From positions 3,006,270 through 3,070,269 of the forward strand of contig CP003179.1 in NCBI GenBank assembly GCA_000237975.1: a stretch of DNA of 64,000 nucleotides, read 5' to 3'. This DNA is from Sulfobacillus acidophilus DSM 10332 (lineage in GTDB: Bacteria; Bacillota; Sulfobacillia; Sulfobacillales; Sulfobacillaceae). Below, piece by piece: positions 6,469 to 47,555 of the stretch (position 1 is the stretch's first letter; the number at the start of each line of letters is the position of its first letter). The notes under the pieces are model-generated. The model did no database searches, was not told the DNA's origin, and was given only the letters and a program-made list of their open reading frames with translations. The position numbers and the translations under genes are program-made.

Positions 6469-6496
6469 AACATGTCCGGTCCCAAAACCCTTTATG

Positions 6497-7066
6497 CTAT
6501 ACTTTCAGGCCCAATCCGCGAATCGCCTGCCGGATTGGGTCAATGCCTTCGCCGGTGCGATTGGAGATCAAGATAACCGGACGTCGGTAAGTTTCTTGTA
6601 AAACGGCTTCCCGCTCGGCTCGTTCTTGGCGATTTAACTTATCCACTTTACTGGCGGCAATAATCAAAAGAATATTGCGTTGACTGGCCCATTCGACGAC
6701 CATCCGCTCTTCGTCGGCCGGATCGCGCCGCACATCTTGAATTAAGACCCCCGCGATAAGGGGCTGGCGGGTGGTCAAGTAGGTTTCCACCGCCTCGCCA
6801 AACAGTTCCCGCTCGACTTTCGAGACTTTGGCATAACCGAATCCCGGCAAATCCACCACATACCAACCGCTCATGGCATAAAAGTGAATCCGTTGCGTTT
6901 TGCCGGGCGTGCCGCTCGTGTGGGCCACCTTGCTTTTCGCCAGTTGATTAATCAGGGATGATTTCCCGGCATTGGATCGCCCCATAAACGCCACTTCCGG
7001 CCATCCCGTTTGGGGCATTTCGTCGGCCGTCAGGGCGGACGCGACCATGTTGTTCTTACCGGCCAC
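6497..7066 (-). CDS. engB: Ribosome biogenesis GTP-binding protein YsxC/EngB
   Basis: This 189-residue GTPase shows all the expected G motifs: G1 [12 protein letters not shown]2 region SGTPGKTQ, G3 [10 protein letters not shown] and G4 SKVDKL. EngB binds the immature large ribosomal subunit and is needed for its assembly. The start overlaps the end of lon by 11 bases, the usual lon-engB pairing in Firmicutes, which makes translational coupling likely. Length matches the family (about 190-200 residues). Confidence 0.93.
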
Positions 7067-9389
7067 TAGGTTCCTCCTCCGAGAAGGGTTCTAAGACCCA
7101 TTCTAAAACGTCGTCCAAGTGTTGAGCGAGGTGGATTTTCACTTGCCGCTTCACAAACGGCGGCACTTCATCCAGATCCACCCGATTCTCCTCGGGAATA
7201 ATCACGTGTTCCATATGGGCGCGGTGCGCGGCCAAAATTTTCTCTTTGATGCCCCCGACCGGTAAAACCCGCCCGCGGAGCGTGATTTCGCCCGTCATCG
7301 CCCATTTGGGACGAACGGCGCGGCCGCTCAGGGCCGAGACCAGGGCGGTCGCAATGGCGATACCGGCCGACGGACCGTCTTTCGGAATCGCTCCTGCCGG
7401 CACATGCACATGAACGTCCAGGGCTTCGTTGAAATGAGGATCGATGCCCAATTCCCGCGCCCGCGATCGCACGTAGCTATAACCCGCTCGCGCCGACTCT
7501 TGCATCACCTCGCCTAATTGGCCGGTGAGGGTGAGTTGGCCCTTACCGGGCATGGTAGTCACCTCAATCGATAAAATGTCGCCTCCGGCCTCGGTCACCG
7601 CCAGCCCCGTCACGACTCCGGTCTGTTGCGTCATTTCCGCCGATTCTAAACGGATTCGCGGGGCCCCCAGATAGCGAACGAGCCGCTGACTGGTCACCAC
7701 CACCTTCTGGGTTTTGCCCTGGACAATATCTCGTGCGGCTTTCCGACAAATCGTCGCCAAGGACCGCTCGAGTTCCCGCACCCCGGCCTCCCGCGTATAA
7801 TGCCGGATAACGAGTTGCAATACCCGACGCCCCAACACCACCCGATCATGACTTAGCCCGTGTTGTTCCAGTTGGCGCGGCCATAGATACCGTTCGGCAA
7901 TGGAGATTTTCTCTTCCTCGGTATATCCGGGGATATGAATGACTTCCATGCGATCCATTAAAGGCCGGGGAATCGAATGGAGCACGTTGGCGGTGGCAAT
8001 AAACATCACCGCCGACAAGTCAAACGGCAATTCAATATAGTGATCGGAAAAATGCGCGTTTTGCTCGGGATCCAAGACCTCCAACAACGCGGCCGAGGGG
8101 TCTCCCCGAAAATCGGTCGCCATTTTATCCACTTCATCGAGCAAAAAAAGCGGGTTTTTACTGCCGGCCTGCCGCATCCCTTGAATAATGCGGCCCGGCA
8201 TCGCGCCCACATAGGTCCGTCGGTGTCCTCGAATTTCCGCTTCGTCACGCACCCCGCCCAACGAGACCCGTACAAACCGGCGACCGGTCGCTCGTGCAAT
8301 CGAACGCGCTAACGACGTTTTGCCCACCCCGGGCGGTCCCACCAAGCACAAAATCGGGCCTTTAATATGGGGCGCCAACGCCAGCACCGACAGATGCTCC
8401 AAAATCCGGTCCTTCACTTTTTGAAGGCCGTAGTGATCCTCGTTCAAAATCCGCTCGGCTTCTTCTACATCTACCCGCTCCTCGGTGGTGATCGCCCACG
8501 GTAAATCCAATAACCAATCCAAATACGTCCGCACGACCACCGCTTCGGCGGATAGAGGCGACATCTTGGCTAGCCGATCGATTTCGCGCGTAATTTTTTC
8601 CCGTACCGGTTCCGGAACCTCGCCTAGCCGTTCCAAACGTTCGCGGTATTCTTCGGTTTCGGGGGCCTCGTCTTGTTCCCCTAATTCCCGTTGGATGGCT
8701 TTTAATTGCTCGCGCAAATAGTATTCCTTTTGGGAGCGCTCCATTTGTTTTCGCACCCGGACATGAATCCGCTTCTCGATTTCCAACAATTCGATTTGGC
8801 GGGACAAAATATCGGAGACTTTGGACAACCGCTCGTCAATCGGAAAGGTTTCCAACACCTCTTGTTTTTCCTGCGTGCGAATGTCTAAATTCATTACCAC
8901 CGTGTCGGCCAATCGCCCAGGATCATCGATATTTAAGGTCACAGAGGCTTCGCCAGGCATTTTCCGCGAGTTTTTGACATACGCCTCAAACAAGTCGACT
9001 ACCGTATGCATCAACGCTTCGGTTTCTTGACCGACATCTTCGCTCGGTTCCTCGATTTCTTCAACCAGCGCCGCAAAATGCGTGTCCCGGTCATAAATGG
9101 CCTGGACCGTCGCCCGCGCCTTACCTTCGACCACGACTTTAGAGCCCCCGGTGGGCATCTTCAACACTTGCTTTATTTCCGCGGTGACCCCCACCCGATA
9201 TAAATCCTCTTCCCCCGGTTCGTCTTGACGGGTGTCTTTTTGGGCAACAAACACGATGAGACGGTCCGCCGCCATGGCTTCTTCCAAGGCCCGCAAACTT
9301 TTTTCCCGCCCAATTTCCAGCGGCACGACCATTAAGGGGAACACCAGAACCCCTCGCAGCGGTAATAACGGCAATTCCCTGGTATTCAT
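7056..9389 (-). CDS. lon: ATP-dependent protease Lon (LonA)
   Basis: This 777-residue protein has the full LonA layout: an N-terminal LON substrate-binding domain (about 1-200), a coiled-coil stretch, an AAA+ module with Walker [10 protein letters not shown] at 351-359 and Walker [10 protein letters not shown], and a C-terminal Ser-Lys protease domain with the catalytic Ser in PKDGPSAG and the Lys in [12 protein letters not shown]. It degrades misfolded and regulatory proteins in the cytoplasm. It is the first gene of the leftward unit that continues with engB and the ger genes, and a terminator of the preceding lonB gene isolates it. Confidence 0.96.
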
Positions 9390-34391: not shown

Positions 34392-34714
34392 CGCATCCCC
34401 TTTTTGCGGAGAAAATCCTGGAGCATCGCAATTTGAAGGTCGCGCTCCGCTAACAGCCGCTTTAGGCGCACGTTTTCTTCGGCTAACGACAAGGCTTGCG
34501 GATCCGGATATTCTGCGGTTAAGGCTTCCCGGACCCAGCGGCGCACCATGGAGGGGTTCAGCTGATGTTGCCGGGCTACCAGGGCCGCATTACCGGTTTC
34601 TCGTACTTCGCGTACCACTTGCTGTTTAAATTCGGGTGCATAGGTTTGACTCATCGGAATCATAGCCTCTCCTTTACCTGTTTTTACGGTATCAAGAGAG
34701 ATCGCTTTTGTCAT
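34385..34714 (-). CDS. IS3-family transposase OrfA (HTH protein)
   Basis: This 109-residue protein has the HTH_8 pattern (YAPEFKQQVVREVRETGN, then ALVARQHQLNPSMVRRWVRE) and a leucine-rich coiled coil (LAEENVRLKRLLAERDLQIA). It binds the element ends and ends in the A5G4 overlap with orfB. Confidence 0.9.
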   Translation of the reverse strand: MTKAISLDTVKTGKGEAMIPMSQTYAPEFKQQVVREVRETGNAALVARQHQLNPSMVRRWVREALTAEYPDPQALSLAEENVRLKRLLAERDLQIAMLQDFLRKKGMRW

Positions 34715-34735
34715 GCTTTCTTAAGGGGCTAAAAA

Positions 34736-35367
34736 GGGCCCACGTAAAGATGAGCCATAACCGATCCCATCGGTCCGCACGGGTGAGACGGACCCCACGG
34801 AGGCGAAAGCCGCCGCGCTCGCCATTTTTGCTGTCCTTAAACAGCTCTTCGATTTGAAACCGTCGCGCATACGCCCGAATAATTTGGTCCGCCGTCAAGT
34901 GTCCACAATTCGTGACGAGAAACCAGGGTTCTTGTTGCCCTTCGGCCCACGTGGCCACAAGCCGCCAGACTTGACGCGCGGCCTTGCCGATCCGAATTGC
35001 CGCCCAATCGCCCCATCGCGTCCGAGTCGTGGCGTATTCATCCAAACGACCGTGATAGTCTGGCGTTTCAATCCACCGATCCCCCTTGAGGCGAATGATC
35101 CATTTCCACCCCGCGGCGTGCGCCGCGGCGAGGAATGACGCTGAACAAAATCCGCGATCAGCGAGCAAGACGGGCGTGCACGTCGGAGGGAATAAGGGCC
35201 GAAGTCGTTGAATAAAACTCCGTTCGATCGCTCCCTGCCGGAGCGTGAGGTCGGCTTTGGCCACCGTTTGCGTAAAGACCGGCACCGCCCGGCCTTGCCG
35301 ACTGACTAGGGCGGCTACCAAGGTTTGATGGCCATCATGGCAATCGGTCCAATCCAGGATTACATGG
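34736..35367 (-). pseudogene. C-terminal part of an IS4-family transposase
   Basis: The frame reads VILDWTDCHDGHQTLVAAL, later VLLADRGFCSASFLAAA and the YREK-like region YARRFQIEELFKDSK, the hallmarks of IS4 DDE transposases. Its N-terminal part is at 39916-40196. Between them sits the DUF6431 transposon, flanked by ACATGG on both sides; removing it gives the continuous GRRWVHVILDWTD. The 3' end is cut by IS3 copy 1 after TWALF. Confidence 0.87.
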
Positions 35368-35588
35368 TGTAGAGTCTCACATTTTTTGACCGTTTTTTGA
35401 GAGGGTTGTCCCACAATGTTTGACGGGGAACAACCCCATCCTCACGGCGGCCCCAAGGCGTAGCCCCAGGGCCATCCTTCGATTGCGGCTTGCCTACCAA
35501 ACAATCCGGGGCAAAAACTTGATTCCCTCGGCCCCAGAGACATGAAATAAAATTGGCTTTTTTATTTCCGGCCGGAAAGGAGCGGACA

Positions 35589-35634
35589 AAAAACAACAGG
35601 CTGCTCGTCTTGGCGGACCGCAGCCTGCTGTTGC
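35589..35634 (+). repeat. Hairpin directly before the DUF6431 gene
   Basis: CAACAGGCTGC and GCAGCCTGTTG-like arms (written on the plus strand as CAACAGGCTGC ... GCAGCCTGCTGTTG) form a stem of about 11 bp. It lies between a GAAAGGAG motif at 35574 and the GTG start at 35637. Member 2 has a different-sequence hairpin at the same place, so structure rather than sequence is kept. Confidence 0.55.
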
Positions 35635-35636
35635 TC

Positions 35637-36314
35637 GTGAATCCGAGTACTCTTACTTTACCCGATTTCGGGACCCTTGTCACGCGTTACCAGACCTTTT
35701 TAGCGACCCAGGAAACCCGATACCGTCCCTGTCCCCAGTGTCAGGGCTGGCGAGCGCGCCATGGCTGGCGCGCCCGGAACGTCCTGGGCGCCCCGGGACA
35801 GTGGGGGCGTTTGGCGCTGCTCCGATTGCGCTGCCGGCCCTGCCACACGGTCGAGACCGTGTTCCCCCCGTGGCTCTTGCCCTATGAAAGTTGGACGGTC
35901 CCCGTCTTGGATGCCGTGTTGACGGCCGTGGCGACGGAGGGGCAGTCGTGGCGCCAGATCGCCACGTTTTGGCAGGTCGAGGTGACGGCCGTCAAGCGCC
36001 GCTGGCGCCGCTGGGATCCCCAGTTGCCGGCCTTTCGCCAACAGGTTCATCAAGTGTTGCAAACGTGGCAGATCGCGACGCCGTGGCGCACCTGGCACCC
36101 CCCGCCCGCGGCGCGCGCCGCGGATTGGGGGTGGTTGCAACTCTGCTGGCAGGCTGTGGCCCTCGTGTTGGGAGCCGTGCGGGAATTGGGCACCCCGACG
36201 GGGTTCGTGACCTGGCGGACCTGGGTGCCCACCGGGTTACCCGGCGGCGTCCTTCCCCTCCATACCCACCTCAGTCGGCGGCTGGGTCGCACGCCCGCGG
36301 GGTTTCCACCCTGA
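35637..36314 (+). CDS. DUF6431-like zinc-ribbon protein of a transposon
   Basis: The GTG start is chosen by comparison with member 2, which shares the GTG followed by (A)ATCCGAGT; the product has 225 residues. A CPQC ... CRPC pair at about residues 32-72 forms a probable zinc ribbon, followed by the conserved HTVETVFPPWLLPYE and a helix-turn-helix-like segment (SWRQIATFWQVEVTAVKRR). I assign DUF6431 from memory of such C-x2-C proteins found beside DDE/ExeA pairs. It may help choose targets or bind ends, as TniQ/TnsD do; this is inference. Confidence 0.65.
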   Translation: MNPSTLTLPDFGTLVTRYQTFLATQETRYRPCPQCQGWRARHGWRARNVLGAPGQWGRLALLRLRCRPCHTVETVFPPWLLPYESWTVPVLDAVLTAVATEGQSWRQIATFWQVEVTAVKRRWRRWDPQLPAFRQQVHQVLQTWQIATPWRTWHPPPAARAADWGWLQLCWQAVALVLGAVRELGTPTGFVTWRTWVPTGLPGGVLPLHTHLSRRLGRTPAGFPP

Positions 36315-36376
36315 TTGATCTCTCCCCAGGCCGTCCGGTTCGCCGTACGGTCAGGGGGAAAGGAGTGGAAAGCCTC

Positions 36377-36925
36377 ATGACAAACGCAGAACGGGACGCG
36401 TGGGCGTTGTTTCGCTATCGGCTCATCAGCCCGCTCTTGGATCCGGCTGTCTCGGCCGCCGATCGAGCCGCCTATTGGGCCTTTTTACGCGATCATCCCC
36501 CGACCACGCCGGATGGCCAGGTGTGGGTCCCCTCTTCCCGGAGTATCCAGCGCTATTGTGCCGCCTATCGGGCGGGCGGCCTGGACGCCTTACGCCCCCA
36601 ACGCCGCCGCGACCATGGGACGCGCCGGGCGTTTTCCGACCCCCTCTGGGTGCAGGCGGTGGCCCTGAAGCGGGAAGTTCCAGAACGCAGCGCAGATCAG
36701 GTCTTGGCCCTTTTGCGGGCGTGGGCTCCCACCGCGGGGCTCGACCCCGGCCTTGTGGACCGCATGCGCCGGTCGACCCTGTATCGGCACTGGGCATCCG
36801 CGGGCATCACCCGGCGGCGCTTGCGCACCGCGGCGCCCAAACGCTATCGGCGCTGGGAAGCGCCGGAGCCGGGGGCGCTCCCCAGCGCCTGTATGTGGAC
36901 AACGGGGGGCCCTATAGCAGTGATC
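36377..36925 (+). pseudogene. DDE (Tn552/IS481-like) transposase, N-terminal part
   Basis: The ATG has AAAGGAG upstream and lies 62 bases after the DUF6431 gene. Helix-turn-helix segments are visible (SSRSIQRYCAAYRAGGLDAL, SADQVLALLRAW). After APEPGAL about 60 codons are missing, including the first catalytic Asp, and the frame shifts so that the second catalytic region LYVDNGGPYSSD is read in another frame. IS256 copy A then interrupts it at 36925 with a 9-bp duplication GCAGTGATC. Confidence 0.8.
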
Positions 36926-38339
36926 GAGGTTGTCCCAGGTTTCGTGGAATTTCGCTAGCGTATCCTTTCTCATGATTTAACCGATTTGCTCGGTTTTTTG
37001 TTCGGGTTTATGCGCCACTGCTGATTTTAAGGCCGTTTGCAACACGGGAATCTCGCGATAGCCCGGGATCCGCGTCAACGTGTCTTCGATGAAAAAGCTC
37101 GCCGACGCCAACCAGCGTAAGACTTGTTGCCCATTGGTCCAATGTTTGACGTTCTGCGCATGGGTCCGAAATTGACTGTTAAGAGATTCCATGGCATTGG
37201 TGTTGGCCAACGTTTGGCGCAAGAGGCCCGGAAGACCCAAACGCTGCACGGTGAGGGTCTCTTCCAACCCTTCTCGGAGGCTCCCGGCGGCGCCGGGATG
37301 GTCCCGTTCAAGCTCTTTCGCGAGCGCTTCTAATGCCTGGGCGGCCTTGTCCGCATCCGGTTCTTGATACGCTTTCCGTAAGCGCTGGCGGACACGATTT
37401 TCGGCCGATTTCGGCAGGTGGTCCAGCACATTCCGTTGCTTGTGAATTTGGCAGCGTTGGATGAGGACGCGATCCCCCCAGACCTCGCGCACCGCTTTGG
37501 CTAAGGCCTTGGCGCCATCGATGACCACGAGTAATCCGTGCGCGGCCGTCAGGCCGCGGGTGATCAGATCCTGTAATAAGGCCGTGACCACGGTATGATT
37601 TTCGGTGGCCCCTTCCACCAATCCCAGTACGCGTTTGTGGCCTTCCGCATCAATCCCTAAGGCCCCGACCACCATGTGGTCGGCCACGCGCAAACCATCG
37701 ATCATCACCACAACCCACGTCCGGTCATCCAACCGGCGTTGGAGGAAGCGGTCGAGGGCCTGTTGGGTGGCTTGGATAAAGCGCCGGCTCACCGTGCTTT
37801 TGCTGGGGCCCGGCTGCTCCATCGCGGATTCAAAGGCGGCATCGGCATGGCGCTGCTGGCGGCTCGCTAAGCCATACAGCATCCGTTCCAGTACGGCTTG
37901 GGTCGCCAGCGTCGGGTCCTGAAACTGATGGTAGGTGTCTAACGGAATTTCCTCCGAGCCATCGGCTGCCCGCACCCGTGGGTGCGAAACGGAGATTTTG
38001 CGATCCCCCAAAAAGACGCTCCCGACTTCGGTCCCGTGTCGGACCGCTTGGCGTTGCGGATCATGACGTCCTTTAGGCCCCGCTAACTGCTCCACCTCGG
38101 CCGCCATCATCTGTTGCAAGACCTGCAATCCGACCCGGATCGACAGCGCCAATAAGCCGTCTTCCGCATCCTGGAGAATGTCTACCCACGGCACGGTCAG
38201 CGTCTGTTCCGAGCGGGACTTTTTCGTTATACTGGAAGCCACTAGCGATTCCTCCTTCATGATGGGTTAGACCTCTCTAGTAAACCAGAGAGCCATCGGG
38301 ATCGCTAGTTTCAATTTCCACGAAAAATGGGGCATTCTC
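36926..38339 (-). mobile_element. IS256-family element, copy A
   Basis: The element is 1414 bp with inverted repeats GAGAATGCCCCATTTTTCGT at the transposase 5' side and GAGGTTGTCCCAGGTTTCGT at the other. GCAGTGATC (9 bp) is repeated on both sides. The encoded protein is the same as in copy B. Confidence 0.94.
36977..38260 (-). CDS. IS256-family (Mutator-type) transposase
   Basis: This 427-residue protein has the DDE core of Mutator-type transposases: the first Asp in VVMIDGLRVADH, the second in LLVVIDGAKALAKA, the conserved C-x2-H as RCQIHKQRN, and the Glu in NAMESLNSQFR. Full length, no defects seen, and identical in sequence to the product of copy B, so it is probably recent and active. 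Confidence 0.95.
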   Translation of the reverse strand: MKEESLVASSITKKSRSEQTLTVPWVDILQDAEDGLLALSIRVGLQVLQQMMAAEVEQLAGPKGRHDPQRQAVRHGTEVGSVFLGDRKISVSHPRVRAADGSEEIPLDTYHQFQDPTLATQAVLERMLYGLASRQQRHADAAFESAMEQPGPSKSTVSRRFIQATQQALDRFLQRRLDDRTWVVVMIDGLRVADHMVVGALGIDAEGHKRVLGLVEGATENHTVVTALLQDLITRGLTAAHGLLVVIDGAKALAKAVREVWGDRVLIQRCQIHKQRNVLDHLPKSAENRVRQRLRKAYQEPDADKAAQALEALAKELERDHPGAAGSLREGLEETLTVQRLGLPGLLRQTLANTNAMESLNSQFRTHAQNVKHWTNGQQVLRWLASASFFIEDTLTRIPGYREIPVLQTALKSAVAHKPEQKTEQIG

Positions 38340-38348
38340 GCAGTGATC

Positions 38349-38981
38349 GCCTCGCCACGATTTGTGCTCGGCTGAATATCCGGCTCATCCATGCGACCCC
38401 CCTATGAGCCCGCCGGCAAAGGCAAACAAGAACGCCTCTGGGGCCATGTGCAGTCCTCGTTTTTGCCGGAGTTGCGGGCACAACCCGCCGACTCCTTGGG
38501 CCAACTCAACACCTGGTTTCATGCCTGGTGCGAAGAGCACTATCATCGGCGGGTCCACAGCGAAACGGGCGAGACGCCCCTCGCCCGCTGGGGGAGGGGC
38601 GGCTGTCATCGGCCCCTCAGCTGGGAAGCCTTGCGCGCCGCCTTTCGGGTCGAGGTCACCCGGCGGGTGGACAAAACGGGCCAAGTTCGCTGGGCCGGCC
38701 ACCGCTGGGTAGTCCCGGAAGGCTTGTTGCAAGCGGAGGTTCAGCTCCGGTTTGATCCCCACCAACCGGATACGATCGACGTCTGGTACCATGACGAATA
38801 TTACGGGCGGGCGGTGCGCGCCGATCGGCTGACACAGCCGCCGGCTGCGGACGCGCCCCCGACCCCTCCCGCGTCAACCGGCCTGAGTTATCTCACAGTC
38901 CTGGAAGCGCGGCAGCGAGCCCGCCGCCCGGCGGGCGTCCGCTACCGCCCCCCGGAAGAGGAGGGGCCACGCCATGAGTGA
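38349..38981 (+). pseudogene. DDE transposase, C-terminal part
   Basis: After the IS256 the gene resumes with RLATICARLNIRLIHATP; an extra C in a run of six C near 38397 shifts the frame, after which YEPAGKGKQERLWGHVQSSF carries the third catalytic residue (E of KGKQE) and a Mu-C-like beta-barrel domain follows. The end overlaps the ATPase gene by 8 bases, a normal arrangement for transposase-ATPase pairs. Confidence 0.78.
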
Positions 38982-39798
38982 CACGTGGTGGCACTATTGG
39001 GGGTGCCAGCGGCCGCCCTTTAGCCGCGATCTCCCGGTGGAGCGGTTGTTTCCGGCGCCATCGTGGCAAGAAGCGCGGGCGCGGATTCGCCATGTCCTAG
39101 AGGACCGGGGGTTTTTGGTGCTCACCGGGGAATCCGGCGTGGGGAAAACCACGGCGCTCCGCGCCGTGCTACACCCGCTGAATCCCGCCCAGTATCAGCT
39201 GTGTTATCTGCCCGTCGCAGAAACCTGGACGCCGCGGCATTTATATCGGGCGGTGGCCCATGCCCTCGCTGTCCCGGTCTCGCCGCGGACCGACGACACC
39301 GAACGGGCGGTCCGGCATACCCTGTGGACGTTGGCCACCCAGCACGGCCGACTGCCCGTGTTGGTGCTCGATGAGAGCCATTTGCTCTCGCCGCATGTCC
39401 TGCAGAGTTTGCGGCTCCTCTTGAACTTCGCCATGGACACGACGGCCCCCTTGGCGTTGATGTGTGTCGGGCATACCGAGTTGCGGCGCAAGTTGGCGCT
39501 CCGACCGCTCGAGGCGATTCGCCAGCGGGTCACGGTCGCCTATCATCTGGCCCCGCTGACCGTAGCAGAAACAGCCGACTACCTTCGTCACCACCTGCAG
39601 GCCGTCGGGGTGGAGCGGCCGGTATTTACGGAGGCGGCGCTGGCCGCCGCCCATGCCTGGTCGCAAGGGATTCCGCGCCGGATTAATCATTGGGCGCGCG
39701 CCAGCCTTATGGCCGCCTGGAGTCAGCAACACCAAATTGTAGACGAGGCCATGGTGGCGATCGCCGAAGCCGAACTGCAGTGGGCCGGAACGGTGTAA
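38974..39798 (+). CDS. ExeA/TniB-like AAA+ ATPase of the transposon
   Basis: This 274-residue ATPase starts with the WGCQRPPFSRD lead typical of ExeA-type proteins, then Walker A TGESGVGKTTALRA near residue 50, Walker B LPVLVLDESHLLS and a sensor region LALMCVGHTELRRKL. Related ATPases (TnsC, TniB, IstB, ExeA) select target DNA and stimulate the partner transposase. The gene is intact although its transposase is broken, so it could act in trans for other members. Confidence 0.85.
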   Translation: MSDTWWHYWGCQRPPFSRDLPVERLFPAPSWQEARARIRHVLEDRGFLVLTGESGVGKTTALRAVLHPLNPAQYQLCYLPVAETWTPRHLYRAVAHALAVPVSPRTDDTERAVRHTLWTLATQHGRLPVLVLDESHLLSPHVLQSLRLLLNFAMDTTAPLALMCVGHTELRRKLALRPLEAIRQRVTVAYHLAPLTVAETADYLRHHLQAVGVERPVFTEAALAAAHAWSQGIPRRINHWARASLMAAWSQQHQIVDEAMVAIAEAELQWAGTV

Positions 39799-39824
39799 CG
39801 CCCGGCAGGCGATGGCCTCGATGG

Positions 39825-39850
39825 AACGGGCCTCCGCACGGAGGCCCGTT
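39825..39850 (+). terminator. Hairpin after the transposon ATPase gene
   Basis: A perfect 11-bp stem AACGGGCCTCC / GGAGGCCCGTT with a GCAC loop lies 27 bases after the stop. There is no T-run, so it may be a weak terminator or part of the transposon end. Confidence 0.5.
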
Positions 39851-39870
39851 ATCGTTGGCGGTTCGAACGA

Positions 39871-39908
39871 CACGAAGCATGAGAAATTGGGTGCCACGAA
39901 GCGTGAGA
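39871..39908 (+). repeat. Two direct repeats in the right end of the DUF6431 transposon
   Basis: CACGAAGCATGAGA at 39871 and CACGAAGCGTGAGA at 39895, 24 bases apart, lie just inside the right terminus. Such repeated sites at transposon ends bind TnsB-like transposases. Confidence 0.65.
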
Positions 39909-39915
39909 CTCAACA

Positions 39916-40196
39916 ACATGGACCCAACGGCGCCCCATCACAATAAACCGGATGGCATCCTGCGCCGCGGCTTCTCGATTCAGCCGGGGGTTCCCCAAAA
40001 AGCGATCGACCCGCTTAATGCGGTGTTTGGGGGCCGCCGGTCCCGACATCCCGCGGCCAATGCTGGCGACTCCGAGCCGCTCGGCTCGGATGAGACCGAT
40101 GACGAGATCTAACAAGGTTTTCGCTTGCGACCGACGTAACCCGCGAATTTGGGTCAGAAACCAGGCCTTCCATTGTGCTATAATATCTCCACGCAT
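39916..40196 (-). pseudogene. N-terminal part of the IS4-family transposase
   Basis: An ATG at 40196 with GGAGGG upstream begins a protein whose segment WFLTQIRGLRRSQAKTLLDL and VDRFLGNPRLN is the typical IS4 N-terminal domain. It ends at the transposon insertion in RRWVH and continues at 35367 on the other side. Before the start, 40199-40262 contains an imperfect inverted repeat (GCCCTCCCGATG / CATCTGGGAGGGC) that can block outside transcription. Confidence 0.85.
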
Positions 40197-40300
40197 AGTT
40201 GCCCTCCCGATGCGGGTGTTTGTTGGGTACTTACACTCTTCGACATCTGGGAGGGCTTTTCCTTTGCGTGTCAAAAATATTTTTGTTAATCTGGCTCCTC

Positions 40301-40318
40301 AAAGTGGGGATGACTCAG
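40301..40318. repeat. Terminal repeat of the IS4 element
   Basis: AAAGTGGGGATGACTCAG marks the outer end of the IS4 element whose transposase starts at 40196. The same 18 bases are found in inverse orientation at 42398-42415. Confidence 0.7.
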
Positions 40319-42004
40319 AATGAGGCATTTTCGCTGTCGGGAAACCGTTAGGGGACGCGGGATGGGAACCGACTCATAAAGAATTTTCCCCCATAAAATG
40401 ACCGGGGGATGCGGGTTTCGGGCACCTATTCGGTCGCTGGTGACTGATTTGACCCCAACATTAGTAAACCCCGCCGCGATCCCGGAAAACCGCACAAACA
40501 CAAGAAAAAACGGGCTGAGCTCTGGTAAAATTGAAGTATCCCCCACAATTTTCCGGAAGGAGCTCCCCCGCATGGCTATCATACCACAACTCTCGCTGTT
40601 TTCGTGGCAAGATCTCCAAGAATTGGGCGACCTCGAACGACTCGTGATCGTGCTGGACACGGTACCCGATGAAGCCCTCATGGGTCAACTCGAGACCGCC
40701 CGCGGCCGTGGGCGGAATGAATACCCCGTCCGCGCGATGTGGAATTCGGTGTTGGCCGGCGTGGTTTTCCAACACCCTAGCATCGAAAGCCTCCGCCGGG
40801 AACTGGCCCGCAATGCGCAACTGCGCGCGCTGTGCGGGTTCCGCAACGCGGCCGTCCCGCCCGCGTCGGCGTACACCCGGTTTCTGCGTCGTCTGATGGC
40901 CGAACAGGACACGATGGACGCGATGTTTGAGCAGCTGGTGGATGACATCACGGCCGTTCTCCCGGATTTCGGTCAGCGCTTGGCGATTGACAGCAAGGCC
41001 ATCCGGTCGCGGGCCGTGCGGCCCGCCAAAAACCCCACCGCCGATGGGCGCCGCGACGTCGATGCCGACTTTGGACGGAAGGAATACCGCGGCGTTCATG
41101 AGGACGGGACCACCTGGACCAAAGTGGTCAAGTGGTTCGGGTATAAGCTGCACCTGGTCGTGGATTCGACGTACGAATTGCCGGTGGCGTGGGAGGTGAC
41201 GAAAGCGTCGGTGTCCGATGTGACCCGTGCGATGCCCTTGTTGGATCATCTGCACCATCGCCACGGGGCGCTGATGTCCCGCGCAGCCATTTTGACGGCC
41301 GACCGGGGCTATGATGATACCAAATTGATCGCCGCCTGCTGGGATACCTACCATATCAAGCCGGTGATCGATATCCGGAATATGTGGCGGGACCCGGATG
41401 CCACGCGAGTCCTGCCGGGCCACCCGACGGTCACCGATAATTATCGCGGTGAGGTGTTTTGTCACGATCCGGTTACGGGTCAGGTTCACACCATGAGTAA
41501 CGGCGGATTCGAAGCCGGGCGGCAATGCCTCAAAAAGCGTTGCCCCGCTCGCTTTGCCGGCGTATCCTGCGCTGGTCAAGACGCCTGTCCGGTCGCTCAG
41601 GGCATTCGTATCCCCTTAAAGACCGAGCGGCGGATTTTTACGCCCATCGATCGCCCGAGCCCGCAATGGGCGCGGGAATACGACCGCCGCACGGCGGTCG
41701 AACGGGTGAACAGTCGGTTGGACGTGTCGTTCGGGTTTGAACTCCATACCATTCGGGGGCTCCAGAAAATGCAACTCCGGTGTAGCTTGGCCCTCGTCGT
41801 CATGTTGGCGATGGCCCTCGGGCGAATTCGACAACGGCAACCGGAGCGCATGCGCCGCCTCGTCGGGTAGTACCCGGCATCGGCCCCGACGGAATCATGG
41901 AAAACCTTCTGCGGCCCGTCGGGCCGCTGGTCCGGCGTCGGCGTGCTCCTGCCTCCACCATCAATGGATATCAACGAGGCCAACTTTTTCCACGATTCCT
42001 CATC
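40319..42004 (+). mobile_element. IS5/IS1182-like element with DUF772-type transposase
   Basis: Likely ends are AATGAGGCATT on the left and, read inward, GATGAGGAATC on the right; extending these by TCAG also matches, but that base set is shared with the IS4 end, so the borders are good to a few bases. About 1.69 kb. It sits directly against the IS4 end and truncates a G1 peptidase gene on its right. Confidence 0.65.
40572..41870 (+). CDS. DUF772/DDE transposase (IS5/IS1182-like)
   Basis: The ATG at 40572 has GGAAGGAG upstream and gives 432 residues. The N-terminal DUF772-type domain (YPVRAMWNSVLAGVVFQHPS, RRELARNAQLRALCGF) is followed by a DDE core with LAIDSKAIRSRA, AILTADRGYDDTKL and RRTAVERVNSRLD. 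A cysteine-rich segment (KKRCPARFAGVSC, DACPVA) lies before the last catalytic region. It seems full length. An upstream extension of the frame has no support. Confidence 0.87.
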   Translation: MAIIPQLSLFSWQDLQELGDLERLVIVLDTVPDEALMGQLETARGRGRNEYPVRAMWNSVLAGVVFQHPSIESLRRELARNAQLRALCGFRNAAVPPASAYTRFLRRLMAEQDTMDAMFEQLVDDITAVLPDFGQRLAIDSKAIRSRAVRPAKNPTADGRRDVDADFGRKEYRGVHEDGTTWTKVVKWFGYKLHLVVDSTYELPVAWEVTKASVSDVTRAMPLLDHLHHRHGALMSRAAILTADRGYDDTKLIAACWDTYHIKPVIDIRNMWRDPDATRVLPGHPTVTDNYRGEVFCHDPVTGQVHTMSNGGFEAGRQCLKKRCPARFAGVSCAGQDACPVAQGIRIPLKTERRIFTPIDRPSPQWAREYDRRTAVERVNSRLDVSFGFELHTIRGLQKMQLRCSLALVVMLAMALGRIRQRQPERMRRLVG

Positions 42005-42397
42005 CTGAACGACTGTTTGCACGCGCCAATTCACGGAGATCGACTACAGCGCAAAAAGCTCTCAGAATGGAACTATCTTGAGCTTCGATATCTCCGTAAT
42101 TTACCATAGGAGTAATTTCCGTGTCATTATAACTCATTAAGCTCGTGTCACTTCCAGATGAAGAGTACCCGTACGCACCCGAAAAGGAAACATTATTAAA
42201 GTTCGCTAGTCCTGTAGCTCCGCCTGGCCATTCGGTAATCCATTCCGCAGAAGCAGCTGGTGCATTTCCACCAGCATACGGAGTATAGTTATAAAAAGAT
42301 GAATACTGACCGGTGGTAACATTTTGCAGAAAATACTCTGTGTAATAGTTACCCTCATAATACACCGAAACATATACGTCATCATTAGGTGCTATCG
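42005..42397 (-). pseudogene. C-terminal fragment of an eqolisin (G1 family) acid endopeptidase
   Basis: The minus-strand frame reads NDDVYVSVYYEGNYYTEYFL, then ASAEWITEWP and LANFNNVSFSGAYGYS. The AEWIxE signature carries the catalytic Glu of the glutamic peptidases, and the strand pattern fits the beta-sandwich fold. The N-terminal half with the catalytic Gln is lost at an IS4-type end (42398), and the C-terminus is cut by the neighbouring IS. These secreted peptidases work at very low pH, which fits an acidophile. Confidence 0.65.
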
Positions 42398-42415
42398 CTG
42401 AGTCATCCCCACTTT
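42398..42415. repeat. IS4-type terminal repeat
   Basis: CTGAGTCATCCCCACTTT is the inverse of the IS4 end at 40301. It marks the left end of a second IS4-like element that continues to the right for at least 35 bases before the second DUF6431 transposon begins. Confidence 0.6.
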
Positions 42416-42452
42416 TAGGCCAGATGAGCGGAAAATTGTTTCGAACGCAAAG

Positions 42453-42960
42453 TGTTAGGTCCCACGTTATTTGACCGCAACGCGTAGGATTCGTCTCGAT
42501 TTCCGTGGCCGAGGGCCACGGGCCAAAATCTCGCAAATTCGGACTTAATCTTTGAATTGAATCCCCTGGATCCGGTTTCATACGGAACAGAACGTTCCGT
42601 AAAGGAGGCAAGAGCAGGGAGTCCTTACCGACCCCTGCTCTCATCTGTGCAATCCGAGTTCAGTATACCGGCTTTTGAGGCCGTGTGTCAGCTTTACGCG
42701 CAATTTTTGGCCACCATGTTGCCCGCCCTGCGGCCGTGTCCCGGGTGTCACGCTCCCCGGGAAATCCAAGGGTGCCGACGGCGGGCGTTGCAATGGGCGG
42801 CGGATCAGATTGATTTCATTGCCTTGACCCGGCTCCGCTGTCGCGCGTGCCACACCGTCGAGACCCTCTTCCCGCCCTGGATTCTCCCTTACGAATTGGC
42901 TGCTCTATGGATTTTAGAGGCGGCAGTGACCGCGGTGGCGGTCGACGGGCATTCCTTACA
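42453..42960 (+). mobile_element. DUF6431 transposon, member 2 (truncated)
   Basis: The left end TGTTAGGTCCCAC aligns with the left end of member 1 over 25 positions (18 identical, including TTTGACCG at positions 18-25). It carries only the first 100 or so codons of a DUF6431-like gene before IS110 sequence begins near 42960. Two further hairpins are present (CCGTGGCC/GGCCACGG near 42505 and TACGGAAC/GTTCCGTA at 42580). Confidence 0.65.
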
Positions 42961-42965
42961 CGTAT
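42647..42965 (+). pseudogene. DUF6431-like zinc-ribbon protein, truncated
   Basis: From GTG 42647 the frame reads a short lead, CPGC, LTRLRCRACHTVETLFPPW and LPYELAALWILEAAVTAVAV, clearly homologous to 35637-36314. A hairpin with arms GAGCAGGG / CCCTGCTC (42612-42640) lies between AAAGGAGG and the start. Homology ends near 42955. Confidence 0.65.
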
Positions 42966-42999
42966 GGTGGGAGTCAAGACCCGGGCTGAAACAATGCTG

Positions 43000-43133
43000 G
43001 CCGGGCCGGGCTTGACGCGACCACCGCGGACGGGCGCCCGCAGGGCCAGGCCGGCCTAGGCCGCCCGTCAGGGGCGCCTGGCCCGAGGGCGGTCGTCCGC
43101 GACAATGTCAGGCCGCGCGGCCCGCGCGACCGG
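43000..43133 (-). ncRNA. Candidate IS110 bridge/seek RNA
   Basis: About 75% GC and highly self-complementary: GGGCCAGGC (near 43058) pairs with GCCTGGCCC (near 43077), enclosing an inner CGGCCTAGGCCG hairpin, and CGCGGACG pairs with CGTCCGCG outside. It directly follows the IS110 transposase stop, where IS1111-group elements encode their guide RNA. No guide/target match was tested. Confidence 0.4.
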
Positions 43134-43458: not shown

Positions 43459-44183
43459 GTGAAAAATATGAAAGAAATTGAGCGCATGGTGACGATGTTT
43501 GCGGAAGGGTATGCGATTGCCGCCATTGCAGCAACGCTCCATGTCGACCGCAAGACCGTTCGTAAGTATGTCTACCAGGAAGACTTTTCGGAACCGTTTC
43601 CCACGAGGACCGGTCGCAAGTCTCCGCTTGATCCCTTCAAACCGACGATTCAAGCCTGGCTGGCGGAGGATGCCCGCGTGCGCTATAAGCAACGGCACAC
43701 CGCTGAACGCGTGTACCAACGCCTTCAAGACGAATATGGGGACCGCTTTACGTGTTCCTATTCCACGGTGCAACGCTATATCAAACAGCTGCGGGCCGAG
43801 CGGCCCGCGCAATCGACGGGCACCCTCGAACTCGAGTGGCATCCAGGAACCGCGCAAGTCGATTTCGGGACGGCTGACGTCTATTGGCAACCCGGGGATA
43901 CCCTGGTCCACGCGGTCAAATATCTGGTGGTAAGCTTTCCCTTCAGTAATGCCGCCTTGTGGCAATATTTCCCGGGGGAAACCGCGGAATGCGTCGTGCA
44001 CGGACTTCAGGCTATTTGGCAACAGATTGGCGGCGTGCCGTCCCGCGTCGTATTCGATAATGCGACCGGGATTGGGCGTCGGATCGGGGAGGTGATCCGG
44101 TACGCCGACCTCTTTGAGCGATTTAAGGTCCACTATGGGTTCGACGCGACGTTTTGCAATCCGGATGCGGGGCACGAAAAGGG
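43459..44183 (+). pseudogene. istA: IS21 transposase IstA, first part
   Basis: The frame starts with a GTG-adjacent MKNMKEIERM and has the helix-turn-helix EGYAIAAIAATLHVDRKTVR and the integrase core (PGTAQVDFGTADVY with the first Asp, RVVFDNATGI with the second). It is interrupted after AAAAGGG at 44183 by the RIT element. Joined with 47680-48053 and 49427-49809 it gives 493 residues in frame. Confidence 0.9.
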
Positions 44184-44322
44184 TTATGGAAAGCGCGCGA
44201 TAATGTAAAGTTTGACGGGGAATCGCCCCGCCATGCGGAGCATCCATGTCCATTTACTTCACATTATCTGACCCCTATAGTGATGGAGGCAATCAAGCCA
44301 CAATCCTCGAGGAGGTCATCCT

Positions 44323-45581
44323 ATGGCAGAGCAGTCCCAGACATTGGCCGCCGTCACGGCGGCCGTGTTACGTTATTTACAAAAGCTGGGCTATTCGGAG
44401 TCCCGCAGTCCCGCATGAGCCAATATCGGTCCGCATGGCAACGACTCGGGACCTTTATGAACGACCGGGGGGACGTCAATTATTCGGCGATGTGCGGGGA
44501 GGCGTTCATTTACCACCTGATCGGCTCCCGCAAGTTTGAGAACCTCGACCGGTGGGAGCAGGACATCATCTACTGCACCAACGTCCTCACCGAGTTTCTC
44601 GAAACAGGGATGATTAAATTTCGACGGGGGCAGAAGTTTTACGACCTATGGGGAGCGGTGGGGCAGACCATGCAGGCTTACATCGCGGAAAAAAAGGCGT
44701 TTGGTCTGAGCTCCGGGACGCTGACCGCATACCACAAGGATTTGCAGCATTTCCTGGCTTATCTAGACACACACGACATAGCCGACGTGCACGCCATCAC
44801 GGCGACCGTCGTCATCTCGTATACCGCCACACTCGGGTTTTGCACGCCACACATTCGACATCGGCGTCTCTCCATCGTGAAAGGATTTCTGCGGTATCTC
44901 TATGATCGCGGATTGGCGGCAGAAGACAGGTCCCCGCTGGTCCCCCGCGACCAGTATTCCAAGCAGCCGGTGCTCCCCTCGACCTATACGCGCGATGAGA
45001 TCGCGGCTCTCATCGCGGCCATCGATCGGAGTAGTCCCAAAGGTAAACGTGATTATGCCATGGTCTTAATCACAGCCCGCCTAGGGCTGAGAGCCACTGA
45101 TGTCTGTGACCTCGGCTTCGAGAATCTTCGCTGGGAAGACAGCGTGATTATCCTGAACCAGCGAAAAACTGGAGAACGAATAGAACTCCCACTTCTCGCG
45201 GACGTCGGAGCCGCACTCATTGATTATCTGAAATACGGCCGACCGGTCTCCGAACTGCCCTTCATTTTTCTGCACGTGAATCCTCCGTATGACCGACTCA
45301 ACCGGACCACCCTGCACAGCATTGTCAGTCTCTCCCTCCGCCGGGCCGGGATCGTGTTCGAGAAGGAGCGCCGCCATGGTCCACATGCCCTCCGCCATAG
45401 CCTGGCGGGCGTATTGCTCGCCAAAAAGACGCCGGTGCCCGTCATCGCCGCAGTCTTGGGTCACCGGAGTACGGAGAGCGCCCGGTTTTACCTGCGAATT
45501 GATCTCCAGGCCCTGCGTCAATGCGCATTGGAAGTGCCGGCGGTACCGCCGGCATTTTATGTGGGGAGGTCCCCTCGATGA
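44323..45581 (+). pseudogene. ritA: RIT tyrosine recombinase A, frameshifted by an 8-bp tandem duplication
   Basis: The ATG at 44323 (GAGGAGG upstream) starts a 31-codon frame that stops at 44418. The tandem repeat GTCCCGCA GTCCCGCA near 44399-44414 is the cause: removing one unit gives a continuous 416-residue recombinase. The remaining part has an N-terminal SAM-like domain and the catalytic residues in LGLRATD, HALRHS, GHRS and the nucleophile Tyr in ARFYLRI. An ATG at 44414 overlaps the stop and could restart translation of a 388-residue product lacking only the first 28 residues. Confidence 0.8.
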
Positions 45582-46549
45582 GCCCCTTTCAGGGTCCCTA
45601 CAGCCCGCTACTTAAGCAGTTCGTCGAATTCAAGCGTAGTCTGGGATACCAATTCCGTAGTGCCGAATACACGTTTCGCCTCTTTGACCACCTTACCGTG
45701 GAACGCGGTGACACCGCCATCGGCATCACGCCGGCGTTGGCCGAACAGGGGGCACTGAAGCGCCCGAACGAATCGGACAGTACCTGTTACCGGCGCGTCA
45801 TGTACCTCATTCAATTCGCCATCTTTCTTAATGAGATGGGTTACCCCTCGTACGTACTGCGGTTGCCGCGGGCCTATCGAAGCACATTCACCCCGTATAT
45901 TTTCTCCCCCCAGGAAATCGATGCCCTGTTGGGGGCCGCCGATCGATTGGATATTGGGCGGGTCCCTCACACGACGGTCAATGTGCTACCCGCTCTGTTG
46001 CGCCTCCTCTATGGAACCGGGATCCGCGTAGGCGAAGCGGTGGCCCTGCGGGTTCAGGATGTCCACCTGGAAGAGCAATATCTGGTCGTGCGCCACAGCA
46101 AAAATGGACGGGAACGGCTGGTGCCCTTTGCCGATTCGTTGGCGGATGTCTTGAGGCAATACCGCCAGGCGCTCGGGATTCAGCCGACGGTGGACGCCCC
46201 GTTCTTTGCTCGGCGCAATGGTCGCCCCTGCCACGCCAAAACGATTTATGAAGGATTTCGACGGGTCCTCCGGGACGCGGGGATTTCCCATGGAGGCAAA
46301 GGACAGGGGCCGCGATTACATGATCTGAGACATGTTTTTGCGGTGCGTTCCTTGGTGGCCATGGCCGAGTCGGGCCTCGATCTCTACTACGCGTTACCGA
46401 TTCTCTCGGAATATCTTGGCCACCAATCACTGGAGGCCACCGATCATTACGTTCGGCTTGTGGCCGATCAGTATCCGGCCCTACTGTCTCAGGTGAACAC
46501 CCTAACGGCGTCCATGTTCCCGGAGGTGAGTGACTGTGCGACCGACTGA
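45578..46549 (+). CDS. ritB: RIT tyrosine recombinase B
   Basis: The ATG overlaps the ritA stop (ATGA) and has GGGGAGG upstream; product 323 residues. Catalytic residues are in GTGIRVGEA (Arg), SKNGRERLV (Lys), HDLRHV (His, Arg), GHQS (His) and the Tyr in TDHYVRL. In RIT elements the three different recombinases are thought to act together on the element ends. Confidence 0.9.
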   Translation: MSPFQGPYSPLLKQFVEFKRSLGYQFRSAEYTFRLFDHLTVERGDTAIGITPALAEQGALKRPNESDSTCYRRVMYLIQFAIFLNEMGYPSYVLRLPRAYRSTFTPYIFSPQEIDALLGAADRLDIGRVPHTTVNVLPALLRLLYGTGIRVGEAVALRVQDVHLEEQYLVVRHSKNGRERLVPFADSLADVLRQYRQALGIQPTVDAPFFARRNGRPCHAKTIYEGFRRVLRDAGISHGGKGQGPRLHDLRHVFAVRSLVAMAESGLDLYYALPILSEYLGHQSLEATDHYVRLVADQYPALLSQVNTLTASMFPEVSDCATD

Positions 46550-47555
46550 CTTCGCGAAAAACCTCACGGCTTTTCTCACCGGCTACCTACCCGGAGAGCG
46601 GGGGGCCAGTCCGCACACGATTGCCTCCTATCGTGACACGTTCAGGCTCTTTCTCGCCTTCGCGCACGCGCAAAAAGGGATCCCTGCCGACCGATTAACG
46701 CTGGGGCAAATCACCAAAGATCTCGTCGTGGAATTCCTGCAATGGCTGGAACACGAGCGGCGCTCCAGCGCCGCCACGCGCAATGTGAGGATGGCCGCGT
46801 TGCATTCGTTTTTCCGCTATCTGCAATATCAAAGCCCGGAACACCTTGCGGAATGGCAGCGCATTCTCGCCATTCCCGTCAAACGCACCGAGAAACCGTC
46901 GATCCACTATCTCTCGGTCGAGGGCATCCGACTCTTGCTGGATACCCCGAATCAGTCCACACGACAAGGACGAAGGGATTTGGCGTTGCTGTCGTTATTG
47001 TACGACAGTGGTGCCCGCGTGCAAGAAATCATCGATCTTACGCCATCGATGGTTCGCCTCGACCCGCCTTATACCGTGAAACTAATGGGCAAGGGTAAGA
47101 AAGTCCGGATCGTACCGCTACTGGAACAGCAGGTGAAGTTTTTACGGATTTACATGACCGAACAGAAACTGTTGGAGCCCTTTGCCAACCGTTATCCATT
47201 ATTCAGCAACGCCCGCCGCGAGAAGTTGACACGCGCCGGCGTTAATTACATTCTGACAAAATATGCGAACCAGGCCCGCACCCGTAATCCGGCGCTTATC
47301 CCCGAGACACTGAGTTGTCATGGGCTTCGGCATTCCAAGGCTATGCACCTGCTACAAGCAGGCGTCAATCTGGTATATATCCGTGATATCTTGGGTCATT
47401 CTTCGGTTCAGGTTACCGAGATCTATGCCCGCACGGATTCCCAGCAAAAGCGTGAGGCCATCGAACGGGCGTATTCTGACGTGGCACCTTCGGAGACCCC
47501 CGCCTGGCTGACCGACGATGGCCTACTGAGCTGGCTGAAGTCTTTTAACCGGTAA
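46536..47555 (+). CDS. ritC: RIT tyrosine recombinase C
   Basis: The GTG at 46536 is chosen because CGGAGGTG lies 7 bases upstream; it overlaps the end of ritB by 14 bases; product 339 residues. An N-terminal core-binding domain (SPHTIASYRDTFRLFLAF) is followed by the catalytic domain with DSGARVQEI, GKGKKVR, HGLRHS, GHSS and the Tyr in TEIYART. Full length. Confidence 0.9.
   Translation: MRPTDFAKNLTAFLTGYLPGERGASPHTIASYRDTFRLFLAFAHAQKGIPADRLTLGQITKDLVVEFLQWLEHERRSSAATRNVRMAALHSFFRYLQYQSPEHLAEWQRILAIPVKRTEKPSIHYLSVEGIRLLLDTPNQSTRQGRRDLALLSLLYDSGARVQEIIDLTPSMVRLDPPYTVKLMGKGKKVRIVPLLEQQVKFLRIYMTEQKLLEPFANRYPLFSNARREKLTRAGVNYILTKYANQARTRNPALIPETLSCHGLRHSKAMHLLQAGVNLVYIRDILGHSSVQVTEIYARTDSQQKREAIERAYSDVAPSETPAWLTDDGLLSWLKSFNR

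Follow-up and report, generated by a model that had tools for sequence, protein, structure and literature searches.

The window analysed here, a 64,000-nucleotide stretch of the Sulfobacillus acidophilus DSM 10332 genome (contig CP003179.1, positions 3,006,270 to 3,070,269), carries a three-gene transposon, designated member 1, which encodes a protein of the Pfam family DUF6431 (PF20020), a DDE transposase and an AAA+ ATPase. Member 1 spans positions 35368 to 39915 on the plus strand (4548 bp, including a later insertion sequence (IS) of the IS256 family) and is bordered by inverted TGT/ACA ends, TGTAGAGTCTCAC at 35368–35380 and TGTTGAGTCTCAC at 39903–39915 (minus strand). Directly outside these ends lies the 6-bp target-site duplication ACATGG, on the left at 35362–35367 and on the right at 39916–39921. 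The element separates the 3' part (34692–35361, minus strand; 144.6 bits versus a cut-off of 152) from the 5' part (39922–40274, minus strand; 35.6 bits versus 152) of an IS4-family transposase gene, and a 350-amino-acid (aa) open frame crosses the junction once a single ACATGG is retained. An earlier note on this DNA had described the split gene, the ends and repeats inside the right end, and all three are borne out, the ends also by a second genomic copy that terminates at the same bases.

Each end holds two related sites. On the left, the terminal site (35368–35393, plus strand) is followed at an offset of 34 by a second site (35402–35427, plus strand), which shares 15 of the 20 bases compared over 35408–35427; on the right, the terminal site (39890–39915, minus strand) is accompanied at an offset of 24 by a second site (39866–39891, minus strand) sharing 14 of 20 bases over 39866–39885, and this one corresponds to the repeats described earlier. 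The DUF6431 gene (35553–36314, plus strand; 38.2 bits versus a cut-off of 26.6) encodes 253 aa as listed, although its true start may lie later, and its product matched PF20020 alone in a Pfam scan at E 0.1. The DDE transposase gene is divided into a 5' part (36377–36926, plus strand) and a 3' part (38350–38981, plus strand; Mu-transpos_C, PF09299, 29.7 bits versus a cut-off of 21.7) by the IS256-family insertion (36927–38339, minus strand; transposase at 36977–38260), which has GCAGTGATCG on both flanks. It is followed by the gene of a TnsC/MuB-like AAA+ ATPase of 274 aa (38974–39798, plus strand). Since the IS256 lies within member 1, the 4548-bp span represents an element of about 3.1 kb plus this insertion, and the three genes and the IS256 leave no space for a resolvase gene in 35368–39915. 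The motif TGTwGAGTCTCAC, allowing at most two mismatches, matched four times in the window versus 1.03 expected (four were reached in 2 of 100 shuffles); by itself it is modestly above chance, and the weight lies on the pairing of the ends, the duplications and the other copies.

Copies of the element in the same genome

PF20020 matched six times in the window's genome, twice in the window and once in each of the loci L007, L008, L009 and L010 (L numbers denote loci and G numbers genomes). The L007 copy (1594–7588, reverse strand), which ends at the same bases as member 1, has its own 6-bp duplication, CCAAAG, and shares with member 1 four long blocks that are 93.3–96.0% identical, one short block (90.5%) and the IS256. 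Compared with L007, the member 1 transposase gene has lost about 0.2 kb (a size reckoned from the alignment), including the codon of the first Asp of the DDE triad, and its frame is shifted; with this deletion, the frame shift and the IS256, member 1 is a dead, decayed copy. In L007 the transposase frame is open, the IS256 lies inside the DUF6431 gene and a further insertion, IS3-like by eye, lies inside the ATPase gene. The two IS256 transposase genes (L007 5482–6765 and window 36977–38260) are near-identical (99.9%); the interrupted gene differs between these two copies of one family.

A truncated member 2 lies further to the right in the window. Its left end (42453–42477, plus strand) shares 19 of 25 bases with that of member 1, and the best second site there again lies at offset 34 (11 of 20 bases); its DUF6431 gene (42557–43015, plus strand; PF20020 34 bits) encodes a protein 41% identical to that of member 1. 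The earlier note had recognised both the matching left end and the homologous zinc-ribbon gene, with a count of 18 of 25 bases that is corrected here to 19. No family transposase or ATPase match was found within 5.8 kb downstream of the member 2 DUF6431 gene.

The copies in L008, L009 and L010 form a second family, divergent from the first, whose shared blocks are 99% alike. The L008 copy (4418–7604) has the ends TGTTTCGGC.../...CCAACA with CTTGGG on both flanks, and the L009 copy shows a 7-bp duplication, CGCTGGC. The ATPase match is divided over two frames in L008 and L009, and L010 ends within the transposase. A comparison of occupied and empty sites, as the earlier note had proposed, succeeded for L008: two 97%-identical copies of its target (L281 and L282) lack the element and hold a single copy of the duplicated bases, the L008 flanks overlapping there by exactly 6 bp. 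For the window copy and L007 the same comparison yielded no clean empty site.

Distribution, ends and insertion sites of the trio

A PF20020 search gave matches in 94 of 398 genomes sampled from the phylum and in none of 14 control genomes. We picked 60 DUF6431 loci in 46 genomes (several per genome in some) from the listed matches, and 42 of them contained DUF6431, DDE and AAA genes in the same order and on the same strand. The other 18 comprised five with a DDE gene only (two truncated by a contig end; in L090 the DDE gene lies about 5 kb away), one with an AAA gene only, nine solitary genes with room for the others, two at contig ends and one missed by the profile. Solitary genes with neither transposase nor ATPase beside them, as in L045, L049, L052, L060 and L091, may be relics or encode domesticated DNA-binding proteins; the L045 and L049 genes encode short products (about 130 aa), and each has, by eye, a Fic-like gene upstream of it. 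The idea that the solitary genes are single-gene elements was dropped: ends were sought at L050 and at eight of the nine solitary loci, with a single weak match as the result.

The association was also approached from the transposase, with an alignment of 22 transposases taken from DUF6431 loci as bait. Named genomes yielded 554 confirmed places; in the 80 best of these, DUF6431 preceded the DDE gene on the same strand in 65, an AAA gene lay downstream in 75 and both were present in 62, in a sample that is not blind to DUF6431, given the origin of the bait. The DUF6431 profile cut was lax in these loci (E 0.05), L113, L120, L122 and L158 passing only near 0.01. Seven further loci (L129, L153, L164, L169, L170, L180 and L192) have by eye a zinc-ribbon gene in the same place which the profile missed and which was not counted. 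As for the remaining incomplete loci, L150 is truncated where its contig begins, masking affects L144 and L145, and L102 stands second in a tandem pair; in L130 and the archaeal L176 no zinc-ribbon gene occupies the DUF6431 position. L147, L148 and L151 are a single near-identical mycobacterial stretch. Viral contigs gave a similar picture, the 14 fuller of 31 matches examined (L181–L194) containing DUF6431 in 13, AAA in 12 and both in 11 cases.

The bait records are labelled Bacillota, Actinomycetota, Chloroflexota, Margulisiibacteriota, Myxococcales, Treponema, Nitrospinota, Acidobacteria, Burkholderiaceae, Acetobacteraceae and, for one metagenome-assembled genome, as archaeal; many are contigs of metagenome-assembled genomes whose individual taxon labels may be wrong. 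Trios as such were found on contigs labelled Bacillota, Actinomycetota, Chloroflexota, Spirochaetota and others. The L101 transposase, used as a query, matched 1627 plasmid records, all below 60% identity (the best, from Thermobacillus composti, at 45.7%), and one phage record in part. In the annotation of a Pseudonocardia plasmid the first gene is a 'helix-turn-helix domain-containing protein' and the last an 'AAA family ATPase'; on a Thermobacillus plasmid a 'DDE-type integrase/transposase/recombinase' and an 'AAA family ATPase' are annotated, and the DUF6431 profile matches in a stretch without a listed gene. Several draft-genome contigs of 3.0–3.4 kb (L103, L104, L106, L107, L109 and others) consist almost wholly of one element, as would be expected if multicopy elements break assemblies.

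Defined ends accompany the genes across the family. Among 125 trios in total, some from the same locus or near-identical, 68 had at least 900 bases to the left of the DUF domain and at least 1300 to the right of the ATPase. Of these 68, 43 (some being near-identical copies) combine TGT...ACA ends that agree in inverted orientation at 8 or more of 14 positions with a direct repeat no shorter than 5 bp, which measures 6 bp in 28, 5 bp in eight, 7 bp in five, 8 bp in one and 9 bp in one. When left flanks were paired with right flanks of other loci, in a control that applied the same end criteria to trios with at least 300 left bases instead of to the 68-trio set, 15 of 400 pairs qualified and only one of 400 with at least 10 matches, a level reached by 26 of the 48 ends found. 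We kept 35 of these 48, namely those with a 6-bp repeat or with at least 10 of 14 matches and a repeat of at least 5 bp, after dropping L116, L178 (the same locus as L094), L083, L177 and L155 by hand. The left consensus of the 35 is TGT.......Cac.tTa..Tgacc.

With 56 offsets tried, the best repeat of the terminal site lay at right +24 in 27 and at left +34 in 16 of the 35 chosen ends. These offsets recurred in 21 of 27 and 13 of 27 dissimilar elements, respectively, after similar ends had been removed, and in 24 of 35 and 13 of 35 when the set was left unfiltered except for the duplicate L178 and similar ends were again removed. The right second site averaged 13.2 of 20 matches versus 10.2 for shuffled sequence; the left one is weak in each element (mean best 11.1 of 20 versus 10.1), so the evidence on that side is the recurring offset. 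Nearly all of the dissimilar elements (24 of 27) are 3033–3639 bp long. Two G327 copies (L063 and L065) have the clean ends TGTTGTTG / CAACAACA without a flanking duplication, the duplications of the G263 copies are ambiguous, and the G371 element in L079 contains an additional 103-aa open frame (5199–5510) 3' of the ATPase gene. Three genes in fixed order between ends with mostly 6-bp duplications, as the earlier note had anticipated for homologous loci, are thus a recurring unit; what does not hold throughout is the company of the DUF6431 gene, solitary in nine of the 60 loci.

The insertion sites vary. All 28 six-base duplications of the hand-kept set differ, with a weak preference for T at position 2 (17 of 28), and near-identical copies in G371 occupy different sites. 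Of the open pieces that touch a junction, 28 in number, eight were run through Pfam together with two references; the matches were an acetamidase/formamidase, a HepT-like protein, a prismane-type protein and four transposases (L007, L189, L161 and L159), with three pieces giving no match. By eye, the interrupted genes include those of a corrinoid-type protein (L079), a helicase (L186), a serine recombinase (L085), an IS110-type protein (L115) and an ISL3 transposase (L009). Insertions in IS genes hence comprise the window IS4, the four Pfam-matched cases, L009 and L115, and such hits can be explained by survival in dispensable DNA.

Two features of the window lie beside member 2. A truncated IS21-family istA gene (43459–44208) stands immediately to its right, and three overlapping tyrosine recombinase-like genes follow in series at 44154–47555 (44154–45581, 45521–46549 and 46530–47555); the row resembles that of 'recombinases in trio' elements, and a comparable recombinase row (4235–7461) lies near the L090 DUF6431 gene.

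Nature of the three proteins

The transposase and the ATPase form a pair of the Tn7/Tn552/Mu kind, in keeping with the earlier note, which had named Tn7, Tn552, Tn402 and IS21 as users of such pairs. Searched against the PDB, the DDE alignment profile matched TnsB best (E 1.4e-27) and IstA as the second kind of match, and the ATPase profile matched MuB (E 2.3e-12) and TnsC (E 8.3e-8); the same search with a single ATPase sequence gave nothing useful. The predicted ATPase model (mean pLDDT 95.6) aligned with ShTnsC (Z 21.5, 3.1 Å over 249 residues) and MuB (Z 21.0, 3.1 Å over 230 residues). Because Pyrobaculum Cdc6 reaches Z 21.2, transposon ATPases cannot be told from others by fold alone. IstB was absent among the listed ATPase matches, of which MuB, TnsC and Cdc6/Orc1 were the best, an absence that does not exclude it. 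The N-terminal region of the DDE protein is helix-turn-helix (HTH)-like, with Pfam matches below the cut-off, and the L008 transposase weakly matched the PADLOC V-K TnsB model (E 8.4e-7).

In a tree of 74 proteins, Tn552, TniA and TnsB grouped together (100/98) and apart from nearly all DUF6431-linked proteins; the family member L193, from a viral contig, joined them weakly (92/59), and IstA stood elsewhere on a very long branch. A second, quick tree placed the family apart from single-gene IS481/IS3-like proteins and from Tn552/TniA; the family itself had modest support (approximate likelihood-ratio support, SH-aLRT, of 82), and three of its 'ref' rows (L249, L251 and L264) proved family-like, with an ATPase. 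The transposase does not group with Tn552/TniA in these trees, whose branches are long and in which the comparison relies on one Tn552-type and one TniA-type yardstick.

DUF6431 proteins display a CxxC...CxxC pattern and an HTH. The model predicts a helix, zinc-ribbon strands, the HTH and a long helix in this order, with high confidence for the core (about residues 41–170) and not for the termini. PF20020 matched 65 of 71 aligned proteins at E 0.01; other matches among the 71 were the NCBIfam ISL3 model (19, at E 0.001), HTH_23 (19, at E 0.01), the NCBIfam IS1/IS1595 zinc model (two) and Zn_ribbon_InsA (one). Profile alignment with hhalign, against yardsticks of three to six sequences each, gave a probability of 96.9% for the ISL3 head, 96.3% for the IS1595 head and 20% for TniQ, the latter represented by three TniQ-type proteins only. 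DUF6431 is accordingly predicted to be a zinc-ribbon and HTH protein most like the heads of ISL3 and IS1595 transposases, and kinship with TniQ is not supported, at 20% versus 97% for the ISL3 head.

TniQ was absent among the 25 listed of 26 Pfam families matched by the 71 members, and a scan of the complete genome from which the window comes gave no PF06527 (TniQ) match at E 0.001. Foldseek with DUF6431 gave a best E of 0.09 (serine integrases, methyltransferases, TetR-like and ribosomal proteins) and VIA a best Z of 5.2 (mostly HTH proteins and ribosomal ribbons), matches too weak to be informative; no TniQ chain was among the structure matches listed, which does not exclude one. Two DUF6431 proteins gave no match in PADLOC.

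DUF6431 is inherited with the transposase, the distances of the two proteins being correlated over 78 elements (Mantel r 0.82). Over 20 elements, end sequence correlated with DDE (r 0.84), ATPase (0.81) and DUF6431 (0.69), and once DDE was accounted for the partial r between ends and DUF6431 fell to 0.05. This value speaks for the transposase as the protein that binds the ends, with target loading or regulation left to DUF6431.

Role of DUF6431 and relation to known systems

We are confident to a high degree that the element and its ends are real, and DUF6431 is very probably an integral subunit. On balance we favour the reading that member 1 represents, in decayed form, a distinct family of minimal three-subunit transposons in which DUF6431 is most likely a loose target adaptor; for the adaptor role taken by itself our support is tentative. 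The DDE protein, TnsB/Tn552-like, would bind the end sites, pair the ends, nick the 3' strands and join them to target DNA, while the ATPase would capture target DNA in the manner of TnsC or MuB. DUF6431, as a DNA-binding third subunit, may help to load or place the ATPase on target DNA, and would thereby hold the place of TniQ in Tn7-like elements with a protein built on a transposase-type zinc ribbon and HTH. Since the element could not accommodate a TnsA-like or resolvase gene as well, movement is likely to be replicative, or the 5' strands to be processed by the host. That the ends track DDE speaks for an action of DUF6431 away from them; between target loading and regulation, we infer the former.

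Several observations weigh against this reading. Neither a target motif nor a common attachment site was found in the 28 duplications and the junction genes, so nothing points positively to a choice of target by DUF6431, and the DUF6431 profile resembles transposase heads more than TniQ. Cdc6/Orc1 fits the ATPase model nearly as well as TnsC does, the left second site is weak per element, and the end correlation is based on 20 elements and confounded by common descent. The 62 of 80 bait loci with all three genes are not a blind sample, and the nine solitary DUF6431 genes had room for the others. Finally, none of the six DUF6431 loci in the window's genome looks like an intact trio, so there is no sign of activity in this genome.

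Foremost among the alternatives, and itself rather doubtful, is a regulator resembling InsA of IS1, which would bind the left end or its promoter, repress the operon and limit transposition, the DDE protein and the ATPase being sufficient for movement. It would suit the position of DUF6431 as first gene beside the left end and its likeness to transposase heads in zinc ribbon and HTH (including the InsA, IS1/IS1595 and ISL3 models mentioned above), and IS21 shows that a DDE and AAA pair can suffice (PMC11208146). Such a regulator fits poorly with the retention of DUF6431 over many phyla, with its high co-divergence and with an end sequence that hardly tracks it beyond DDE. In small elements it is common for a regulator to disappear or be replaced.

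Less probable still is a role as a split-off head that binds the ends, in which DUF6431, as a co-transposase subunit, would occupy one of the two sites per end and be needed for synapsis. The profile alignments with the ISL3 and IS1595 heads and the repeated sites at fixed spacings would be accounted for; however, the DDE protein has an HTH-like region of its own, the second site copies the terminal one, as for a single binder, and the partial correlation speaks against it.

A strict site-specific selector homologous to TniQ/TnsD (the earlier note had suggested that the third protein is perhaps a target selector like these) appears highly improbable, because the insertion sites vary: the place of DUF6431 in a DDE and AAA trio and its zinc-binding, DNA-binding character would fit, but all duplications differ, the interrupted genes are unrelated (acetamidase and prismane-type proteins, by eye a helicase and a recombinase, and IS genes), near-identical G371 copies sit at different sites, the TniQ profile probability is low and the window's genome contains no TniQ match. 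Equally improbable is a passenger gene riding on the element, for which the solitary genes could be cited, since DUF6431 precedes DDE on the same strand in the great majority of bait loci and most of the 60 loci hold the full trio, whereas passengers usually vary between relatives.

The loose adaptor that we prefer to these alternatives would act within a family that shares features with several known systems. A pair on NZ_CP094788 (480-aa DDE, 271-aa ATPase), which we take to be Tn552 from its protein lengths, likewise encodes, side by side and in similar sizes, an AAA ATPase and a DDE protein whose C-terminus is of the Mu type, and its DDE protein was the best yardstick tried with the family profile (E 4.6e-52); it differs in that a recombinase gene, not DUF6431, precedes the pair and in that its ATPase matches the family profile weakly (E 1.5e-11). 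A resolvase gene is a feature of Tn552 and Tn5053, for which member 1 has no space. Tn7-like elements likewise combine a TnsB-like DDE protein, a TnsC-like ATPase and arrayed end sites; unlike the present family, which has DUF6431, no TniQ and mostly 3.0–3.6 kb, they carry TniQ/TnsD, and their target duplication is of 5 bp, whereas here 6 bp is found in the window copy and in 28 of 43 trios and 5 bp in eight of 43. Passages of Benler 2021 (PMC8649781) give tnsD/TniQ in 73–97% of each Tn7-like clade and median lengths of 14–29 kb, and those of Faure 2023 (PMC10293859) describe a TniQ/TnsD core of a helical domain, a zinc finger, a helical linker and a second helical domain.

Phage Mu is comparable in its MuB, the best PDB match of the ATPase profile, but the trio element, of about 3 kb and three genes, has no room for phage genes. 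IS21 follows the same two-gene DDE and AAA logic with IstA and IstB, and we know of no third gene in it. IstB is described in passages of PMC11208146 as a close paralogue of DnaC/I. The NCBIfam IS481 model (NF033577) matched 22 of 22 family transposases at E 1e-5; the family differs in its three genes and in that L007, at 155.9 bits, lies below the cut-off of 224, although G048 relatives do pass it, and the loci of the single-gene IS481/IS3-like proteins fetched contained no ATPase match in about 1.5 kb on each side. ISL3 and IS1595 heads share the zinc ribbon and HTH layout with DUF6431; there the ribbon is a domain of the transposase, while DUF6431 is a separate protein of about 200 aa.

Faure 2023 surveyed target selectors, and its main text contains neither 'DUF' nor 'zinc ribbon'. 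Searches of the open-access PubMed Central literature found no description of the trio, consistent with the earlier note, which had known of none; ISfinder, bioRxiv and most subscription papers were outside this scope, and an entry there is possible. DUF6431 is named there in one paper, which deals with a different topic. The family is widespread and apparently undescribed, a variant of the known kind of DDE and AAA+ transposon. We consider it a possibility, though on the speculative side, that DUF6431 represents a target adaptor of a new class that serves TnsC/MuB-type ATPases, unrelated to TniQ and derived from a transposase zinc-ribbon head, in very widespread, undescribed small DDE/AAA+ transposons.

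Known DDE and AAA+ transposons choose their targets via TniQ/TnsD, via TnsE or with no third protein. The DUF6431 family is common, its third subunit is a different one and nearly constant, and the whole element measures only about 3 kb; it would offer a compact natural system for studying a TnsC/MuB-type ATPase with a partner. PF20020 thereby gains a biological setting, and the trio offers small parts for DNA insertion tools, with defined end sites that allow direct testing.

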